A stretch of DNA of 64,000 bases, taken from positions 1 through 64,000 of the forward strand of contig WGMF01000013.1 in assembly GCA_016125215.1 (NCBI GenBank), given 5' to 3'. The stretch is from Phycisphaera sp. (GTDB lineage: Bacteria; Planctomycetota; Phycisphaerae; Phycisphaerales; Phycisphaeraceae). Positions within the stretch are counted from its first letter, which is position 1. Every line of letters starts with the position of its first letter. This document shows, piece after piece, positions 1-9,400 of the stretch. The notes beneath the pieces are model-generated. The model was not told where the DNA came from. It saw nothing but the letters and a program-made list of their open reading frames with translations, and ran no database searches. The position numbers were made by a program, and so were the translations under genes.

Positions 1-57
1 CTGTTTTATTGTGTATGAAACATATCCATCTATGGTTTTATACTATCGACGACAAAA

Positions 58-250
58 ACTGATAGGAAATTTGATTCCAGGCGGGTCGGGATCAGGGGCT
101 TGGGGGGTGAACTGATAGGAAATTACTGATAGGAAATTTGATTCCAGGCGGGTCGGGATCAGGGGCTTGGGGGGTGAACTGATAGGAAATTACTGATAGG
201 AAATTTGATTCCAGGCGGGTCGGGATCAGGGGCTTGGGGGGTGAGGGGTT
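58..250 (+). repeat. 67-bp tandem array of the 60-bp junction repeat
   Basis: Three units start at 58, 125 and 192, giving an exact 67-bp period. Each unit carries ACTGATAGGAAATTTGATTC near its start and GGGGCTTGGGGGGTGA near its end. Between units there is a 14-bp partial copy (ACTGATAGGAAATT). The third unit runs on into GGGGTTA, and a glycosidase fragment starts at that point. Single copies recur at 1928, 2845 and 4742. The perfect period could be a real tandem expansion or a graph artefact at a contig end. Confidence 0.9.
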
Positions 251-1149
251 ACGCCACGGGAGATGGACAGTATGCGGACGTGATGGAGCGGGCGTTGTAC
301 AACGGAGTCATCAGCGGCGTGTCGCTCAGCGGCGATCGGTTCTACTACGACAATTACCTTGCTTCATGTCCACCGTATCACAAGTTCGCCCATCGCCGCA
401 GTGCCGACCGGCAGGAGTGGTTTGATTGCTCATGCTGCCCGACAAACATCGCGCGCCTGCTGGCATCGCTGGGTCAGTATGTATACTCGGCGAGTTCGCG
501 CGAATTGCGTATCAATCTGTTTGCGTCGAACACGTTCACCGGGGAACTGGCAGGCACACCGGTCACGGTGAAACAAACGACCGAGTATCCGTGGCAGGAG
601 AAGGTTCGCATCGTCGTCACGCCGGAACAGGCGGCAACCTTCACGTTGGCCGTGCGCATTCCCGGCTGGTGTCGTGGAGCACGGATAAGGCTCAACGGCA
701 AGTCGGTGCCGCTTGGCCCGATCACGAAGAAGGGTTACGCCTCGCTTCGCCGCACATGGTCGCCCGGTGACAGGATCGAGTTAGTGCTGCCGATGCCGGT
801 CGAACGCATCGAAGCGCATCCGAGCGTGCGTCACGATGTTGGCAAGCTCGCCCTGCAACGGGGCCCGGTGGTGTATTGCCTGGAAGAAGTGGACAACGGC
901 AAGGACCTGGCTGCCCTCGCGCTTCCCGCTGATGCGAAACTGACCGCAAAGTACGAATCCAATCTTCTCGGCGGCGTGACCACCATCACCGCCAACGCGC
1001 AGCGCCTTGACACGGCCAACTGGAAAAGCGACCTCTATCGCCCCGCCGGTTCAACCCGCTCGCGCCGTGTGCCGATAAAAGCTGTACCGTATTGCGTCTG
1101 GGCCAACCGCAAGCCCGGCGAGATGGTCGTGTGGGTGCGGCAAGCATAG
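250..1149 (+). pseudogene. GH127-type beta-L-arabinofuranosidase, C-terminal fragment
   Basis: About 300 residues of the C-terminal half of a GH127 (former DUF1680) glycosidase. The family's Cys-rich motif is visible as WFDCSCCPTNIARLLASL, which carries the Zn-binding/nucleophile cysteines in characterised GH127 enzymes. It is followed by the beta-rich C-terminal domain, including RIPGWC and LQRGPVVYCLEE. The similarity to the family begins at YATGDGQYADV, exactly where the upstream repeat ends. Roughly the N-terminal half of the (alpha/alpha)6 barrel of a normal ~620-residue enzyme is therefore missing. An open frame continues into the repeat (from 205), but that part is repeat sequence. I infer a gene cut by recombination at the repeat. 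It is unlikely to make an active enzyme. Confidence 0.85.
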
Positions 1150-1173
1150 TGCGTCGACGGAGTGTGATGGTTG

Positions 1174-1908
1174 ATGAATGCCTACTCCCTTCACCCTTCG
1201 GCTCCTCCCAAATCAGACTGCATCTTCATCGGGCGTCTGGCACACGCGAACGAACAGGCTGTGTATACCGGCAGCTTCAACCGGTATCGCGTGCGTTTGA
1301 CGGCTGACATGCTGTGGTGCAGCGAAGAACTGTACATCCCGCTGGCTAACATCGAGTCCACGCAGATCATCCGCAAAGGATGGCTGATTCGTCGGCACGC
1401 GTTGGAAATCGTGTATCGTGATCCCGTCTCGCGCTTCCGCAGTGCGCTGTATCTGTGTCACATCTCACCTCTGGGCACGTATCAAAAGAAGAGGCTTGAG
1501 AAGCTGGAGCAGTTGATCACGCAACAGCGTCAGCAGATCATCGCTGTGCCCGGACGTGATCCGAGCCACGAAATCATCATGCCACACGTGTGCGAAGTGT
1601 GCGGTAGCAGAGATGCTTACCTGGTGCACTACGTCTACATGATTGGTGCGGTGGCTTTCTGGTATCGCGCGCAACGCCAGCGTGTGCACTGCCCCAAACA
1701 CATGCTGGTGGAAGGCCTGTGCGCCTATGCCATCACCGCACTAACAGGTTGGCTGGGCTTGAGCGTGATCGTGTGGCCGATCACTCTGATCCAGAACGCC
1801 CGCACACTGCGCCCGGCCATGGGACGTATCGCCTACGCGTTACCCATTCCACCACTCGCCGGCGCAGTGTTCCTGCTCGGCCTGCTGTTCAAATGGTGGT
1901 CGCTGTGA
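1174..1908 (+). CDS. membrane protein with zinc-ribbon-like motif, unknown function
   Basis: About 244 residues, not recognised. The N-terminal ~125 residues look like a compact domain with a PH-like rhythm of strands, including LYIPLANIESTQIIRKGWLIRR, a pattern seen in membrane-anchored PH-like proteins. A CEVCG motif and a later HCPKH (residues ~135-175) could bind a metal. Two hydrophobic stretches close the protein (roughly 188-208 and 220-243), so it probably sits in the membrane with the N-terminal domain in the cytoplasm. The ATG at 1174 is preferred over the TTG just before it. It follows the GH127 fragment by only 25 bases and ends 19 bases before a copy of the junction repeat. Function is not assigned. 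Confidence 0.65.
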   Translation: MNAYSLHPSAPPKSDCIFIGRLAHANEQAVYTGSFNRYRVRLTADMLWCSEELYIPLANIESTQIIRKGWLIRRHALEIVYRDPVSRFRSALYLCHISPLGTYQKKRLEKLEQLITQQRQQIIAVPGRDPSHEIIMPHVCEVCGSRDAYLVHYVYMIGAVAFWYRAQRQRVHCPKHMLVEGLCAYAITALTGWLGLSVIVWPITLIQNARTLRPAMGRIAYALPIPPLAGAVFLLGLLFKWWSL

Positions 1909-1927
1909 CGGCTCGGGGCATCAACTG

Positions 1928-1987
1928 AACTGATAGGAAATTTGATTCCAGGCGGGCCTGGATCGGGGGCTTGGGGGGTGAGGGGTT
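1928..1987 (+). repeat. 60-bp junction repeat, copy 2
   Basis: Same sequence as the array at 58-250 with a few substitutions (GGGCCTGGATCGGGGG in the centre) and the same AGGGGTT right end. It is oriented like the first array and opposite to the copies at 2845 and 4742. Confidence 0.9.
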
Positions 1988-2045
1988 GACGAGCCCGGCC
2001 GGGACGAGGACATACCGTTCTGAACCTGCCCGATTGGCCGCTCGA

Positions 2046-2073
2046 TTGACCGCCGGCGCAGGCAACGTAGAAT
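2046..2073 (+). promoter_or_regulatory. sigma-70-type promoter of tRNA-Glu
   Basis: TTGACC at 2046-2051 and TAGAAT at 2068-2073 are separated by 16 bases, close to the housekeeping consensus. The -10 box ends 43 bases before the tRNA, a sensible distance for a stable-RNA transcription start. Confidence 0.55.
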
Positions 2074-2116
2074 ACGCCTACTGTGTGGATGCCCTCGGGT
2101 ATCCACGATACGCCAC

Positions 2117-2189
2117 GCCCCCTTCGTCTAGTGGCCCAGGACAGCAGATTCTCAGTCTGCATACAGGGGTTCGACTCCCCTAGGGGGTA
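2117..2189 (+). tRNA. tRNA-Glu (anticodon CUC)
   Basis: A complete cloverleaf can be folded. The acceptor stem is GCCCCCT with AGGGGGT (one G-T pair). The D arm is closed by GTC/GAC. The anticodon stem is GCAGA/TCTGC around loop TTCTCAG, giving anticodon CTC. A four-base variable region is followed by T stem AGGGG/CCCCT with loop TTCGACT, and the discriminator base is A. CCA is not encoded. It lies between two inverted copies of the junction repeat. tRNA genes are common integration targets, which fits the debris around it. Confidence 0.93.
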
Positions 2190-2330
2190 TTCTTTCCGGC
2201 TTACGCTTCACTTCTCGCCAACAAGTCACTTTAAAAGTAACCGGTAAAGCAGCGTTAACGAAGCGGCAACCCTCGACGCCTGAAAACGCAGGGCGACTTT
2301 GATCGATCGCGTTTGCCAGCCGTCCCGCCA

Positions 2331-2642
2331 CTGGGCTACAACTGTGGAGGCACCATGAAGAGCGTCGCCTTCATCGAAGCCCGTCAAGGCCAAGTCGTCC
2401 GTCAGATTCTCGAACACTGCGGCCTGTGGCAAGACCCACCCCCGCCAAACGCCAATGCCCCGCCGCGGTCGCCGCCGCGTCCCCATCGGCGTTCCCGGCG
2501 TTCAGGGGCCACGGCACCGACGTGTGCGCTGCCCGAGGCCGATGCCGGTGTGAGTTACGAGGTCGATCCTGAATACCTCGAACACGCCCACCGCGAGGCC
2601 CTCGGCGAGCAGGACCAGCCCGAATTGCCATGGGACGCCTGA
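2331..2642 (+). pseudogene. IS91-type (Y2) transposase, C-terminal remnant
   Basis: The frame encodes the last ~100 residues of a planctomycete/proteobacterial IS91-family transposase: a degenerate zinc motif (CGGTM where the family has CPxCGGxM), then KSVAFIEARQGQVVRQILEH, CGLW, a Pro/Arg-rich linker and the acidic end ELPWDA. No upstream catalytic HUH or tyrosine part is present. The reading frame upstream of 2331 lacks family similarity, so this is a 5'-deleted relic. The TTG at 2313 opens a longer frame, but nothing suggests it is translated. Confidence 0.75.
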
Positions 2643-2674
2643 ACCCAAACCCAGCTAGCTTGGCTAGTTTCGTC

Positions 2675-2703
2675 TTGACCAAGGCGGAACCGGGTGTTAT
2701 ATA
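2675..2703 (+). promoter_or_regulatory. promoter-like site at the IS91 remnant end
   Basis: TTGACC (2675-2680) and TATATA (2698-2703) are spaced by 17 bases, a near-consensus sigma-70 pair. No gene follows for ~400 bases, the next intact one being the fucosidase at 3127. It may be an outward promoter of the dead element. Activity is not shown. Confidence 0.35.
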
Positions 2704-2844
2704 GTCTGCATGCAGTTTGGGGGCGTTCCCCGAGCAAGAACACCGGTTCCATCGGACCGAAATGGAGGGTTCGGATGGTGAACGGGGCGAATCGCATGCC
2801 AATTCCGAGGGCGGGCAAAGCTCGTAGTTTCCCCCTCTCCCCTT

Positions 2845-2904
2845 AACCCCTCACCCCCCAAGCCCCCGATCCCGGCCCGCTTGGAATCAAATTTCCTATC
2901 AGTT
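2845..2904 (-). repeat. 60-bp junction repeat, copy 3 (inverted)
   Basis: Reverse complement of the copy at 1928, starting AACCCCTCACC and ending CCTATCAGTT. With the 1928 copy it brackets the tRNA and IS91 remnant as an inverted pair. Confidence 0.9.
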
Positions 2905-3064
2905 GGGCTTGCTCACGCCCAAGCAATATGCCAAACAACTCGCCGCAGGCACTGGCTCTGGTCGGACTAAGCCCTCCCTCCGCCAGCGCCCGCACCTAAC
3001 CACCGAACCACAACAACGAAAAACCCATCAACCGCTGGGAATCCTCTCACAGCAAGTGGACTGA
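2903..3064 (+). pseudogene. IS3-type OrfB transposase, extreme C-terminal remnant
   Basis: A 53-codon frame ending in TGA reads LGLLTPKQYAKQLA, then GSGRTKPSLRQRPH. This resembles the tail of IS3-group integrases, where a HxxLGYLTPxEYA motif closes the rve domain and a short basic tail follows. It starts at the very end of the junction repeat and has no start codon or catalytic residues. Assignment rests on the LTPxxYA pattern and the tail composition only. Confidence 0.5.
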
Positions 3065-3082
3065 AAAGGTCGGCTCAGGCAG

Positions 3083-3101
3083 ATTTGGATGGAAATGTCC
3101 G
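3083..3101 (+). repeat. 19-bp direct repeat, left copy
   Basis: ATTTGGATGGAAATGTCCG, matching 18 of 19 bases at 4721-4739. The two copies flank the GH29 fucosidase. The left one lies in its leader and the right one encodes its last residues. Confidence 0.85.
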
Positions 3102-3126
3102 CAAAGAGAAAAAAAGGGGAAGTAGC

Positions 3127-4743
3127 ATGAATATTTTAAAACAAACGACAGCGACCTTTGCGATCTGTTTTTCAGCGGCCTCGCTGCAGGCTGCAACGCC
3201 GGAAAAACAAGTTGGGTCGACAAAACAGGCCCCTTCGGCTTCCGAGCGGTATGACGGCAGTTGGGAATCGCTGCAGCAGATGCCGGTTCCGGCGTGGTTC
3301 GACGACGGCAAGATCGGCATCTTCATCCATTGGGGGCCGTACAGTGTGATCGGCTACCGCAAGGGCGGTCGCGGCTACTCCGAACATGTTCCGAAGTTGA
3401 TCTATGAGGAGCCGGAGCACTACTATCCCTACATGAAGGAGCGCTGGGGAGCCGCGCCGCCGGAGTTCGGCTACAAAGACATCATTCCCGAGTTTAAGGC
3501 CGAAAACTGGGATCCCGATGCGTGGGCGAAGCTGTTCAAGGAAGTCGGGGCACACTATGTAGTGATGACGGCCGAGCATCACGACGGCTGGGCCAACTGG
3601 GATTCGGATCTGACGCCATGGAACGCCATGGACAAGGGCCCCAAACGTGATCTGGTTGGTGATCTCGGGAAGGCTCTCAAAAAGCAAGGCCTCAAATATG
3701 CGCCGTCTTATCACCGCGAGCGTCATCAGTCTTTCTTTGCCAAAGAAAAGTTCGTGGTGAACGCTGAGCCACGGGACGATATCGCGGAGGAGATTAAGCG
3801 CGTTCCGGAAGCGGCGTCTCTCTATGGACCGTTTGGAACGACAAAGGAGTATGTCGACAGCTACGTTGCCCGCTGGAAGGAAATCCAGACCAAGTATCAG
3901 CCCGATTTTTTGTGGATCGACGATATTCCGATCTGGACGCGGGATGGAAACAATGTGCTGGCCGGAAAAGCAAAGCCGGAAGTGCAATATTTCTATGACC
4001 AGTGCCGGATGATGATTACCGACTTTATGAACGACGGCGCGGCCCGGGGCGCGGAGGTTTATCTCAACAACAAGGGCAAAAACCGCAACTGGCCGGACGG
4101 CGTGGGCTGTCTGGAAAAAGATAACCTGAAGCTAGAGGTGATCGGTCCGAAGTGGCAGAGCTGCACCACCTTCGGTTCCTCGTACGGCTATCTGGAGGGT
4201 GACCGCTATAAAACGATTGAAAGCGTGATCCATGAAATGGTTGAAGTGATTAGCCGGAACGGAAACTTTCTGGTCAACATTGGCCCGAAAGCAGACGGGA
4301 CGATTCCGGAGCCGCAGGTGGAACGCCTGCACGCCATGGGTGAGTGGTTGAAAATTAACGGCGACGCGATTTACGGCTCCCGCTATTGGAAGGAGTGCGG
4401 CCAGCCGAATGAGCACCTCGCTTTTACCACGAATGGTAAAAGACTGTATGCGATCAAGCTGCAGAAGCCGGTGGCTCCCTTCACGATTACCGGAACGGCC
4501 GGCTGGAGTGCAGATGAAATTAAAGGGATTCGCCTGCTTGGCTCCAATGCGAAGGTGGCGTGGGAAATGACCGCGCAGGGTGTGCAGATCACTCCGCCCT
4601 CCGATTTGGGCGCCAGTCAATATGCCTGGTCGTTCGAGATTGGAACCACCAAAGAGCAGCATCATCCCAACGTGATCGTCCGAGATGCATCTGCAGCGCT
4701 CACAGGTACGAAGGAAGTGGATCTGGATGGAAATGTCCGTTAA
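3127..4743 (+). CDS. secreted GH29 alpha-L-fucosidase
   Basis: About 538 residues starting at the ATG that follows an AGGGGAAG ribosome site. A TTG at 3085 would only add a basic non-signal leader. An N-terminal signal peptide (MNILKQTTATFAICFSAASL, cleavage after QA) sends it to the periplasm. GH29 hallmarks are present: WFDDGKIGIFIHWGPYSV near residue 60, TAEHHDGW near 155, and the nucleophile aspartate in FLWIDDIP near 265. A C-terminal beta domain follows. It should release alpha-linked L-fucose from oligosaccharides. The gene is visibly richer in A/T and AAA/GAA codons than its neighbours. Its last codons come from a 19-bp direct repeat, and its stop TAA is the first base triplet of the abutting junction repeat, so the natural C-terminus may have been longer. 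Transfer is likely. Confidence 0.93.
   Translation: MNILKQTTATFAICFSAASLQAATPEKQVGSTKQAPSASERYDGSWESLQQMPVPAWFDDGKIGIFIHWGPYSVIGYRKGGRGYSEHVPKLIYEEPEHYYPYMKERWGAAPPEFGYKDIIPEFKAENWDPDAWAKLFKEVGAHYVVMTAEHHDGWANWDSDLTPWNAMDKGPKRDLVGDLGKALKKQGLKYAPSYHRERHQSFFAKEKFVVNAEPRDDIAEEIKRVPEAASLYGPFGTTKEYVDSYVARWKEIQTKYQPDFLWIDDIPIWTRDGNNVLAGKAKPEVQYFYDQCRMMITDFMNDGAARGAEVYLNNKGKNRNWPDGVGCLEKDNLKLEVIGPKWQSCTTFGSSYGYLEGDRYKTIESVIHEMVEVISRNGNFLVNIGPKADGTIPEPQVERLHAMGEWLKINGDAIYGSRYWKECGQPNEHLAFTTNGKRLYAIKLQKPVAPFTITGTAGWSADEIKGIRLLGSNAKVAWEMTAQGVQITPPSDLGASQYAWSFEIGTTKEQHHPNVIVRDASAALTGTKEVDLDGNVR
4721..4739 (+). repeat. 19-bp direct repeat, right copy
   Basis: ATCTGGATGGAAATGTCCG, one mismatch from the copy at 3083. 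It is coding (DLDGNVR) at the end of the fucosidase and touches the next junction repeat. Confidence 0.85.
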
Positions 4744-4802
4744 CCCCTCACCCCCTCAAGCCCTCGATCCCGGCCCGCCTGGAATCAAATTTCCTATCAG
4801 TT
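4742..4802 (-). repeat. 60-bp junction repeat, copy 4 (inverted)
   Basis: Same orientation as copy 3, with one extra base (CCCCCTCAAG). It supplies the stop codon of the fucosidase on its left and abuts an ABC-permease sliver on its right. Confidence 0.9.
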
Positions 4803-4875
4803 CATCGGCATCTGCTTCACGTTCATCCTCGGTATGACTATCGGCGGCATCTCCGGCTACGTCGGCGGCCGCTGA
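4801..4875 (+). pseudogene. OppC/DppC-type ABC permease sliver
   Basis: Twenty-four codons then TGA: ...CFTFILGMTIGGISGYVGGR. The pattern FxLGxxxGxxSGYxGG is the second membrane segment and following loop of OppC-family dipeptide/oligopeptide permeases. The fragment begins at the junction repeat and ends at the terminal inverted repeat of the insertion sequence. Nothing else of the gene is in the window. Confidence 0.6.
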
Positions 4876-4961
4876 TGTGGTCCAAATGCCGGCATCCTGG
4901 AAACCACCCCCCCTTCCGGCCCCGGTCCACAATGTCGGACACTGCCCATTTTATCCTTAAA

Positions 4962-6071
4962 TCATGCGGCTTTTCTCTCGTAATGGTTCAACAACCCGCC
5001 CAGCAACGCGTGCCGGTGGACGGCTCCGACTTCATTGGTCGGTGGCGGCGATTCGGTCGCTCGGATGGGGATTGGATCGTGACTCATGGTCAGCGGAATG
5101 TTGCCTTTCCCTTGGTGTGGCCGCAGTCGATTGTAATAGTCCGAGTAGGTTTGCACGATGTGGTCGAAGTGCCGCAGGCCAAAGCAGACGAAGTGGTTCA
5201 GGCACTCACGCTTGAGCGCGCCGATCCACGACTCCGCGTAGCAGTTGGCGATCGGGGCCAGGAACGGGGTCTTCACGATGTCGACACGGTTGGCCTTGAG
5301 GACTCGGTCGAACGACTCGGTGAACTTGGTGTCGTGGTCGTGGATCAGGTGAGTGGCTTCGACCCCCTCGTCCTCGAGCCACATGGTGACGTTCCGAGCC
5401 TGCTGCTTAACCCACTCTTCCGTCGGGTGGTAGGTGCTTGGGCTGGTAAAGACCTTGCGACTACCCAGGTGGATGAACACCAACCCGAAGGCCAGGCGCT
5501 TACCGAGTGGCGTCCAGATATTTTTGCAGAAGAAGTCGCAGGCCACCATCGTGTTGATGTGGGTATCGACGAACAGCCGCCACGGCGTGGTCACGCCCTT
5601 GGGCGCTTGCCGATCCGGGTCGGGCAGCAACCCTTCGTCGACCAAGACCCTTCGAACAGTGCTTCGGCTCTGAATGAGGGCAAGCTTACGCAGTTCGCCG
5701 ACGATCCGACGCACGCCCCAACCGGTGTTCTCGTGGGCCAGGCGGAGAATCAAGGCCTTGAGCGAAGCAGACATTCTGCGTGGGCGACCCACCCGCTTGG
5801 ACGATTGGCCGGCCAATTGGTCACGCACCCACCGTCGGTAGGTGTTGACACCGACGATCCCGATGAGATCATCTACCCGATGCCCCAGCGAAGCACCGAG
5901 CCTGAGCAACCGCGACCGTTCTTCCGGCGTAAGAATCACCCGGTTGCCCGGCATACGCTGCCGCAGCAGTTCGACCTGAGCCTTGAGGAAGCGAATCCGA
6001 TCGTCCCGTCGTGCCGACCAGGCCTCCGCGAGCAGCTCGAACAGCACCATCACCCAGCTTGGAATCGCCAT
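4962..6071 (-). CDS. IS3/IS481-like DDE transposase (rve integrase)
   Basis: About 369 residues, apparently intact. The N-terminus (MAIPSWVMVLFELLAEAWSA) starts a helical segment, followed by a helix-turn-helix part with VGRPRR and GWGVRRIVGELRKL. The rve catalytic domain begins near MVACDFFCKNIW, giving the first Asp. HDHDTKFT supplies the second Asp, and CYAESWIGALKREC with HYERKAA at the end completes the planctomycete-type integrase, the Glu lying in AESW. The ATG at 6071 is chosen because family members start with a MxIPSWVM sequence. The frame is open 6 codons further. It catalyses cut/join of its own element on chromosomal DNA. Confidence 0.88.
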   Translation of the reverse strand: MAIPSWVMVLFELLAEAWSARRDDRIRFLKAQVELLRQRMPGNRVILTPEERSRLLRLGASLGHRVDDLIGIVGVNTYRRWVRDQLAGQSSKRVGRPRRMSASLKALILRLAHENTGWGVRRIVGELRKLALIQSRSTVRRVLVDEGLLPDPDRQAPKGVTTPWRLFVDTHINTMVACDFFCKNIWTPLGKRLAFGLVFIHLGSRKVFTSPSTYHPTEEWVKQQARNVTMWLEDEGVEATHLIHDHDTKFTESFDRVLKANRVDIVKTPFLAPIANCYAESWIGALKRECLNHFVCFGLRHFDHIVQTYSDYYNRLRPHQGKGNIPLTMSHDPIPIRATESPPPTNEVGAVHRHALLGGLLNHYERKAA

Positions 6072-6131
6072 CACGCCCTCCGGCCCCAAAGTCGTAAATC
6101 CAGTTCCGGCAACGGACCGACATTATGGACC

Positions 6132-6396
6132 ACCCCCGGAAGGTTGCCAAACGACACTGATACGACAACCCCCACGGCTATCACCGTCGATCGGGTGCTC
6201 TGGACCATAACCAGTAGGTTGTCTGGCCCAACCCGCAGGTGCCCAAAGGCGTGTCGACCAAGATCTGATCGTCGCCAGGCATCATCATGTTAAAAATACG
6301 TTGATCCGCGAAAATCTGCGGATAATCAGGCAAAATCAAATCTCAACTCACCGGGCCAGCACCACAAAAAAAGCATACCGGCCTTTTCGAAGAGGG
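6132..6396. other. non-coding stretch between IS inner and outer ends
   Basis: No gene can be supported here. One short minus-strand frame (about 6205-6290) reads MMPGDDQILVDTPLG and may be another sliver of a broken gene, not identified. The part from 6290 to 6396 is A/T-richer than the surroundings. Confidence 0.4.
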
Positions 6397-6407
6397 TTTG
6401 GACCACA

Positions 6408-9400
6408 CTACCCTCGGCCGATGTTGTTGACCTTCGCCACAAGCTGGCCGTTGATGTAAACCAGGACACTGCCCTGCTGGAAGAAGCCACCACGGAATCG
6501 GAGCTTGTCGAACTTCGATTTGTCCTCGATGTTGAACGTGCCACGGAACAGAACGGTGTGGTACATCGCCCAGGAGATCGGCTGCCTGGCGTCGTCCCAG
6601 CTTGAATCGGCAAAGCCCACGTCTGCCCAGTCCGCCGGCGCCTGCGAGATGTCTTCAATGAGTTTCATCTTCCAGACCTCGGCGTCGCCGGCCTTCTTTT
6701 CGTTAAGGTCAGGCGTGAGACAGGCCCATGTTTCATTTTTCTTTGGGGGCAGCGCCCCCTGCAATGCAGCCTCTTTCGCGGCTTCTTCCTGCGCTCGTTG
6801 TCCAGCAAAATTCTTCATCACCCGCTGGACCTCGGGCGATCCGAGTGATTCGACGATCGTTTTGAGACGCGGGTTGTCCGCCGCGACGACACCTTGCAAC
6901 TGCGGCAGGTCCATCACGGCGTAATCATAATTACCAAGTTCGATCTGTTTTTCGGCGTATGCCAGGTCGTTGTTGATGCTCGCACGCAGGATGCGCACCG
7001 ACTGGAGGAAGTGATCGACCATCGGCTGGTCGTCCGACGAGATCACGACTTTGCCGGGCAACTCGACGAGGAGTTTTTCACACAGCGCGTAATCGCGTTC
7101 GTGCAGGGCCTTGAGCGCGGGCTGGAGGTAAGGCGTCTGCTCACCGCGTTTGCCGAAGGCGGTGTGCGGGGCGCCGAAGATGCGCAGGCGTTGCCTGGGC
7201 GCGGCGTAGTGGATCGCATAACCCACGCCGACGCCGCCGCGACCGGCCTGGGTAAAACTGCCGTCGTCGTTGCGGTAGAGTTCGCGCCACCACTGCTGGC
7301 CTTGCATGAAGTGCTGGAAGCCTTTCTTGCCCGACTCGAACGCGCCGATCGGCGTCCAGAAATTGTTGAAAAACATCCCGCCGTGACCGGTGCGCGTTCG
7401 GTTGTAGGAATAGACGCAGTAGCGCGAGCAGATCTCGACCGGCTGGTGGTCGTCGATGAGACTGAACAGGGCCGCGGCTTCACCGAGCTTGCCGTTCTGG
7501 CTCCAGAGCATCCCATTGGTCTCGGCATCGGGGTCGAGCGCCGCCGGCGAGTCACGACGAAGATTCCAGTACAGGTACTCGACAAAGCCGTGCTCGGCTC
7601 GCTGGTAACGGAAGTGACGGATGCCGTTCTTGAGCGCATCCTGATCCACATCCAGGCCCGCCTGGTCGGCGTAGATCATCGCCTGTACACACGCGATGCC
7701 CGCAGGGGGCATCAGGCCGTAGCCCGACTTCCAACGGTCGGCCCCGGTGGGGTTGTATCGTTGACGGTAGCCGCCGACGTGCTCGTCCGCCTGGGCGACT
7801 TCCCAGGGCACCGGCTCGGGACCGGGCGCTTTGATCTGCGTGACCGCCGCCCAGTCCGCGAGGTTTTTCATGTAGGGCAGCACGTTGCGGTCGCCCGTGG
7901 CGTTGTAGTACTCGCCGAGCAGGATGGCGTTGTAGCCGATCATCCAGTTGTGCGCCCCTTTGTTCGGGTCCGCGGGCTCGAGCGGGTCCATGCTCTTCAT
8001 CAGGTCATACACCGCGCGTCGCACGAGGCCCTGCACCTCGGGGTCGCCCGTGGCCAGGAGGAACCAGACATCGGTGCCCAACATCCCGCTGGGAATGCCC
8101 GCGGGCCCGGTCTGGGGTCGGCACCGATCGATGACCCATTGCTCGGCGCGCTTGATGAGGTTTTCGGTCTTCTGGCAGTAGTAAGGCGTGGTCGGGCTGT
8201 AGGTGCCCAGGACGCGCAGCTGCAGCGTCACGCCGATGACCTTCTTGCCGCGGCGGACCATGAGTTCGAGCTTGCCCGCGCCCTCGTCGGATTCACTGTG
8301 GGTGATGGCGTGGGATAACTGAATGTAAGGCGCGTCGCCGGGACCGGTGAACTTTTCGCCGTTGACGCCGAAGATGTAGTCGCCGGGGAAGAGCTTGCCG
8401 ACGGCGGGCGTGCCGGGGTCGATGCTGATGACGTAGATGTTAGGCCCGAACGGGCTGGAGTAGATGCCGATGGGTCCGGGCCTGCGGGGGATGGGCTCGG
8501 AGTCGCCGGATTCAAGGTAATCGACCTCGCCGTTGATGATGGCGATATCGTTGTCACCCCATTGGTCAGCGGTGGTGGAGTATTCGGGCGGCAGGACCTC
8601 TTCCACGCCCTCTGAGTACCAGGCAAACGTCCATCGGTCGTCGGTGTTGAATGGCAACGCGGGCAGGCCGGCCGAGTTGGTCAGGCCCATGGAAGGATTG
8701 TTCTGCCAGTTGAAACGGACGTATTGGATTTGCCCGGCTTCGGGGCAGTGGAGCTTGACGGTGTTGCCCTCGACTCTCGCTGTGGCGGGGAAAAATTCGC
8801 CGCCCGGTGCCGCGGCCTCGAAACACTTGAGCACGTCGTCCGTCGCGGTCAGGCCTTCGGCTGTGCCGGCTTTGAAGTGGATGGTAGCGTCGGCGAGGAA
8901 GGCGTCGAGGCGGTCGAACTGCGGACCGGTGGCTACGGTGTCTTTCTTGCCGTACACGTCGGCGAGCAGCCAATGTCGGCAGCGGTCTGCCAGAAGATTT
9001 TCGTCGCTGGGTTGGCCGCTGAATGGCGTGTTCTCCACCCCCGGAAGAATCAGGCCGACGCCTGTGTTGTCGATTGAGATGCGACGCTGCAGCTCGCGCA
9101 TCTCACGGTTGTGCTGGGCCAATGCATCGAGGGCTGAACTGGGCGGGTTAACCAAACCAAAGGGGATTGAGGCGTCGTTGAAGGTGTTGCGCCAATCCCC
9201 GATCACGACGGGTGTGGTTTTGGAAGAGGTGCGGTAGCCGAGCTTCATAATCAAGTAGTTCTGGGCCCAGGCCGCGTCGAGTTCGGGTTCGGTCTGTGCC
9301 AGTCCGAGCTTGGCCAGTCGGCGGTACGGGATGTACGGATAGTCCGCGCCGAGTTGCAGGACCACGGCGTGGAAGGTCATTTCACACAGAGGATGGATCA

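Follow-up and report, generated by a model that had tools for sequence, protein, structure and literature searches.

A short repeat between gene fragments in a Phycisphaera genome as a predicted oriIS-side end of IS91-family elements

What kind of element lies between the unrelated gene pieces at the start of a planctomycete contig? The 64,000-nucleotide stretch analyzed here, referred to as the window, corresponds to positions 1 to 64,000 of contig WGMF01000013.1 from a Phycisphaera sp. assembly (GCA_016125215.1; class Phycisphaerae), and its first kilobases carry several copies of a repeat of about 60 bp, some of them adjoining gene fragments. A preliminary description took this repeat for a recombination or integration site of an unknown element. 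It is indeed the end of a mobile element, but of a familiar family: sequence comparison identifies it as the predicted oriIS-side terminus, on the 3' side of the transposase gene, in a group of rolling-circle elements from the IS91 family, whose transposases are of the HUH type. We consider it highly probable that the repeat is this end, that its solitary copies arose by one-ended transposition, and that the surrounding gene mosaic reflects their insertion together with an ordinary insertion sequence (IS) and recombination or mis-joining. On this reading, a repeat that might pass for an unknown integration system would acquire both a name and a mechanism.

Structure of the repeat

In the whole genome (58 contigs, 4.04 Mb) we count 27 copies at 23 sites. 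The repeat is real at the places first described, since an nhmmer profile built from the window copies recovers those at 58-250, 1929, 2845, and 4742 (E-values for the window copies of 1e-16 to 1e-18). The block 58-250 is made up of two truncated 53-nt copies and a single full one, not of three full copies. The window copies and the element to which one of them belongs are the following:

58-110 (+): repeat copy, truncated 53-nt form, followed by a 14-nt partial end
125-177 (+): repeat copy, truncated 53-nt form, 100% identical to 58-110, followed by a 14-nt partial end at 178-191
192-250 (+): full oriIS-like unit of 59 nt with unrelated DNA on its inside (outer end 192, inner end 250)
1929-1987 (+): full solo oriIS-like unit, with a partial end (aactga) just before it
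2322-2642 (+): decayed C-terminal tail of an IS91-family transposase (open frame 2355-2642)
2643-2844 (+): non-coding stretch from the transposase stop to the terminus
2845-2903 (-): repeat copy joined to its own element, oriIS-side end
4742-4801 (-): full solo oriIS-like unit

Both ends of a solo unit of ~60 bp are conserved, the outer one as ACTGATAGGAAATTTGATTCC and the inner one as GGGGTGAGGGGTT, with a variable GC-rich stretch between them. The outer end is kept across 70 listed copies, for which ACTGATAGGAAATTTGATTCC was itself the search string with up to 4 mismatches permitted; in many of these copies the inner stretch around GGGGTGAGGGGTT is conserved as well, and the middle varies. 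Certain copies match one another at 100% identity for ~60 bp, yet their flanks are devoid of similarity on both sides. The tandem arrangement of partial ends and full copies recurs in G033, a genome from another family, likewise at a contig end. Partial duplicates of their own outer end (ACTG, ACTGATAG, and AACTGATA) also precede several copies (L024:7181-7196, L033:5270-5284, and L052:1254-1270), perhaps as a result of nested insertions. Another copy (L031:6111-6195) bears a near-palindromic sequence of ~26 bp in the middle of the unit, and a similar insert occurs in L061.

Linkage to IS91-family transposases

The copy at 2845-2903 links the repeat to a transposase. Positions 2322-2904 form a single piece, overlooked in the preliminary description, made up of an IS91 transposase tail and its end: 2322-2591 shows 52% identity to residues 394-475 of a full transposase from another genome of the class (L046), and the 21-nt core of the repeat begins 243 nt beyond the transposase end. 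This copy (2903-2845) and a second one in the same genome (contig C2, 87.6 kb) have 318 bp in common at 89% identity, running into the transposase tail. The full transposases with a matching tail (L046, L047, and L049) contain the PF04986 (Y2_Tnp) and PF14319 (Zn_Tnp_IS91) domains above cut-off, and the two tested against the NCBIfam IS91 model NF033538, L046 and L049, reach 163 and 168 bits, respectively (cut-off 125). The 95-aa tail of the window itself has no match in Pfam or NCBIfam, being too short or decayed for such libraries.

An independent test started from the tail protein alone, which was found at 13 places spread over 11 of 298 genomes. Two of these places belong to the present genome, one being the query, and ten of the 13 had enough downstream DNA to be examined. 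The 21-nt end GGAATCAAATTTCCTATCAGT was present at eight of these ten loci, with 0-3 mismatches and starting at +204 to +253, whereas in 200 shuffled controls per locus the best match had at least 5 mismatches. Three more loci carry it: L035 and L041, found via the repeat, and L099, found via the N-terminal part of the transposase. The repeat sits 3' of the transposase gene, the side on which oriIS is placed in IS91-family and ISCR elements in three reports (PMC3189936, PMC6218425, PMC13393415).

Solo units and their distribution

Most copies stand apart from any element. The script used for classification listed 24 copies in the present genome, 22 of them classifiable, having merged the window copy at 192 with that at 125 and excluded any copy whose 21-nt end departs from the motif by more than 4 mismatches (as on C2 at 82.2 kb and on C24 at 8.9 kb). 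Seventeen of the 22 are solo, three of them in tandem blocks, and the remaining five continue past their inner end into sequence also present in elements of the group, one for just 43 bp. In other genomes 28 of 43 copies were classed as solo, a count in which L060_1047 is treated as linked merely because the next copy lies in its inner flank and in which L067 and L082 are weak G-rich matches. The transposase linkage of three copies (window_1929, L035_5977, and L060_1047) belongs to the element of a neighboring copy and not to their own. These observations suggest that oriIS ends can be maintained and can multiply as units of ~60 bp, here in an assembly where no full transposase of the group is detected.

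Matches to the consensus occur in 31 of 397 genomes of the class, the present one included, some of them over 21-30 nt only, in a survey that scored two matches per genome. In a phylum-wide sample 11 of 392 genomes matched; near-full-length matches came from three genomes, namely the present one, a member of its family, and a member of its order, and all other matches measured 34 nt or less. A named Phycisphaerales metagenome-assembled genome, retrieved by an exact 21-mer search of named genomes, carries a decayed element (L041). The element group occurs in several families of one bacterial class, which, judged from this genome, is probably the Phycisphaerae. The repeat was not found in viral contigs, and a Bacillus contig with the exact 21-mer was set aside as a chance match, the rest of the unit being absent from it. 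A tblastn search of plasmids with the window tail gave no match; with a full transposase it gave at least 5000, all below 60% identity among the matches listed.

Comparison with known elements

The closest parallel among the elements that we compared is the end of ISPps1, annotated as IS91-like, which we take to be the ISCR8 of the literature. Five plasmid records provided three independent contexts of this element. In one comparison the sequences part immediately after AATTTCCTATC, and a second comparison puts this point three letters further on, after AATTTCCTATCCGT. The end AATTTCCTATC is nearly the same as the outer end here, AAATTTCCTATCAGT, and the transposases of ISPps1 and of the elements carrying our repeat are HUH enzymes of the same families. 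The ori end lies ~190 nt past the transposase stop in ISPps1 and 225-274 nt past it in the present group. In contrast, the transposases are only ~29% identical, and the end is amplified here as solo units of ~60 bp. In agreement with the equation of ISPps1 and ISCR8, PMC13393415 gives Pseudomonas sp. ADP2 as the ISCR8 strain.

Two other systems resemble the Phycisphaerae repeat. As described in PMC3189936, right-end fragments of IS801 of 229, 360, and 679 nt move by one-ended transposition in Pseudomonas syringae, and one-ended products made up 26.3% of the IS801 insertions in that assay. The units described here are likewise right-end fragments of the IS91 family devoid of a transposase gene, although movement, demonstrated for IS801, is here a matter of inference, and they measure ~60 nt as against 229-679 nt. 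From the left tetranucleotides of IS801 (GAAC and similar ones), only AAC recurs, in part of the copies. In ISCR1, a 232-bp region containing oriIS lies downstream of the rcr gene and beside variable foreign genes, according to PMC6218425. The present group shares with ISCR elements the oriIS region at the downstream end, adjoining variable foreign genes, but differs from them in that a full transposase was not found in the assembly when L046 was used as query. The family of mobile elements is therefore a familiar one and the novelty modest, residing in the size of the solo units and their class-wide spread. Among the PubMed Central papers listed, judged by title and abstract opening, there was no account of solo oriIS units of ~60 bp, and a search of the same database retrieved no paper uniting Phycisphaer-, insertion sequence, and IS91.

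Genes at the repeats

Copies of the repeat adjoin both broken and intact genes. The window features concerned are:

251-1149 (+): GH127 fragment
3127-4743 (+): GH29 alpha-L-fucosidase, about full length
4801-4872 (+): internal sliver of an OppC-type permease, 24 residues, cut on the left by the repeat and on the right by the IS
4875-6407 (-): IS481/IS3-type insertion sequence on the far side of the OppC sliver

The preliminary description had a broken gene at every junction, which is true of the GH127 fragment and the OppC sliver but not of the fucosidase, near full length, nor of the tRNA-Glu, which is intact. Similarity to GH127 begins at nt 253, 3 bp beyond the copy ending at 250, and at position 307 of the 376 of the profile. 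Apart from this fragment, a PF07944 search of the genome returned a single gene, intact and located on C51, so that the N-terminal part is absent from the assembly. For the OppC sliver, an intact paralogue is encoded on C29 at 75.7 kb. The best match of the fucosidase outside the present genome spans residues 43-522 of 538, and its stop codon derives from the repeat copy. A 20-bp direct repeat (95%) flanks this gene at 3082-3101 and 4720-4739, its second arm stopping two bases short of the copy at 4742.

The preliminary description had also proposed that intact genes on both sides of the repeat elsewhere would speak for a mere intergenic element, and here the genome gives a divided answer: among the 23 sites, both neighbors look intact at five and at least one looks broken at four, and 14 were not judged, many of them having neighbors that belong to no Pfam family. 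Judged from Pfam matches and open frames, both neighbors look intact on C51 (79.8 kb), C24 (11.5 kb), C6 (27.5 kb), C3 (142 kb), and C4 (180 kb). A DddA-like domain ends at profile position 94 of 137 on C33 (nt 521), and on C27 (77.5 kb) a PBP-like domain breaks off ~100 nt ahead of the copy, having reached position 103 of 267. Elsewhere in the genome the repeat is an ordinary intergenic element too. The DddA-like case is a deaminase domain fragment (L022:242-523) that stops at the copy near the start of C33.

Origin of the solo units and of the gene mosaic

Elements of the IS91 family begin their transposition at the right (ori) end, and the process may terminate prematurely where it meets a ter-like tetranucleotide. 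The short oriIS units of Phycisphaerae were most likely spread by one-ended rolling-circle transposition and later rearranged. Transposition would begin at oriIS and halt early at an (N)AAC site, leaving a unit of ~60 bp; by analogy, such units may be shorter products of the one-ended process known from IS801, presumably moved by a transposase that our search of the assembly did not reveal. They have the intact ori end and the sharp inner edge, with unrelated DNA beyond it, of an IS801-like one-ended miniature. Members of the IS91 family are expected to insert beside a tetranucleotide of the GAAC or CAAG type and to leave no duplication; here AAC follows the inner edge in 6 of the 17 copies of the present genome that are not linked to the element. 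The mosaic of broken genes between 1 and 6.4 kb would then go back to insertions of oriIS units and to an ordinary IS, with the repeats serving afterwards as points of recombination or mis-joining. Such units offer a simple system for testing the minimal ori of IS91 transposition.

Several results weigh against this scenario. A joined-flank test showed no empty site, though 800 of 1140 random control cuts were spanned too, and the outer edge has no strong target motif (ACTG in 5 of 69). The 21-nt end was not found at two of the ten testable tail loci (L044 and L053), nor at 11 loci of more distant IS91 transposases (L092-L098, L100, and L102-L104; at least 8 mismatches in the best match), four of which offer no more than 102 nt of sequence; the exact end therefore belongs to a subgroup. 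With L046 as query we detected no full-length transposase in the assembly, and a PF04986 search of the genome gave no match, but its control was silent too. The upstream regions of four full-element loci, in which the left (terIS) end would lie but for whose placement the copies are too few, contain no match to the inner edge of the solo units. Finally, the authors of the IS801 study regarded most genomic IS801 fragments as products of reorganization and not of one-ended transposition (PMC3189936).

This last point also favors the strongest alternative, a possibility that we take seriously without preferring it, namely that the junctions arose by homologous recombination between dispersed copies already inserted and not by transposition itself. 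The copies are near-identical and clustered, and the GH127 fragment and the OppC sliver lack their partners. Against it, efficient homologous recombination generally needs more than the 60 bp available here, and the assembly contains no reciprocal partner flank for GH127.

Rather unlikely, in our opinion, is that the broken junctions of the window are mis-joins of the assembly at a dispersed repeat, the repeat being real and the mosaic not, an explanation compatible with the oriIS identity of the repeat. Fourteen of the 27 copies are found no more than 2 kb from a contig end, a zone that accounts for at most 5.7% of the sequence; counted by site, the figure is 10 of 23 (binomial tail 2e-7). 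Either the assembly breaks at the copies, then, or they are signs of mis-joins. Tandem arrays occupy contig ends on C4 and C37 of the present genome and in G033, and the first 57 nt of the window, right before its tandem copies, have 30% GC as against 62% for the window and are possibly a chimeric contig end. However, each of the four repeat blocks of the window has its own sequence variant, the copy at 2845 passes without a break into the element it belongs to, as seen in other genomes, the N-terminal part of GH127 is at no other contig end, and the G033 genome, although from another family, has the same structure of partial end and full copy. The mosaic may be biological or partly an artefact, and contig ends and gene fragments that cluster at such units are a warning for work on draft genomes.

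We find it doubtful that the unit is itself a miniature transposon of the rolling-circle type, several times smaller than the IS801 miniatures and mobilized in trans by IS91 transposases throughout the class. On this reading, transposition would start at the outer end and now and then run beyond the inner one, which would produce helitron-like mosaics of gene fragments. An ordinary DDE-type miniature inverted-repeat transposable element or a REP-like repeat would also be short, dispersed, and frequently placed between open frames, but is very improbable here: the ends, ACTGATAGG and GAGGGGTT, are not inverted repeats of each other, and the outer one is the end of an HUH/IS91 element. Least credible are integron attC sites bounding gene cassettes, suggested by 60-bp units between unrelated pieces and by same-orientation runs on several contigs, which we reject because the single-strand folds are weak (z -0.5 to -1.0 for two copies, each folded as either strand), and against which stand the two orientations within the window and an outer end that belongs to a transposase element.

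Other features of the window

The tRNA was the sole match in an Rfam scan of positions 1-7000. The segment 2906-3061, previously called an IS3 tail, could not be confirmed as such, having no match in Pfam, NCBIfam, or a plasmid tblastn search. An open frame of 245 aa at 1171-1908 has no Pfam or NCBIfam match and no relative in 40 other genomes. The transposase encoded by the IS481/IS3-type element (4962-6089) remains under both NCBIfam cut-offs. This IS (4875-6407), around which no target duplication is visible, has matching ends and lies between the OppC sliver and the end of a DUF6288 gene.

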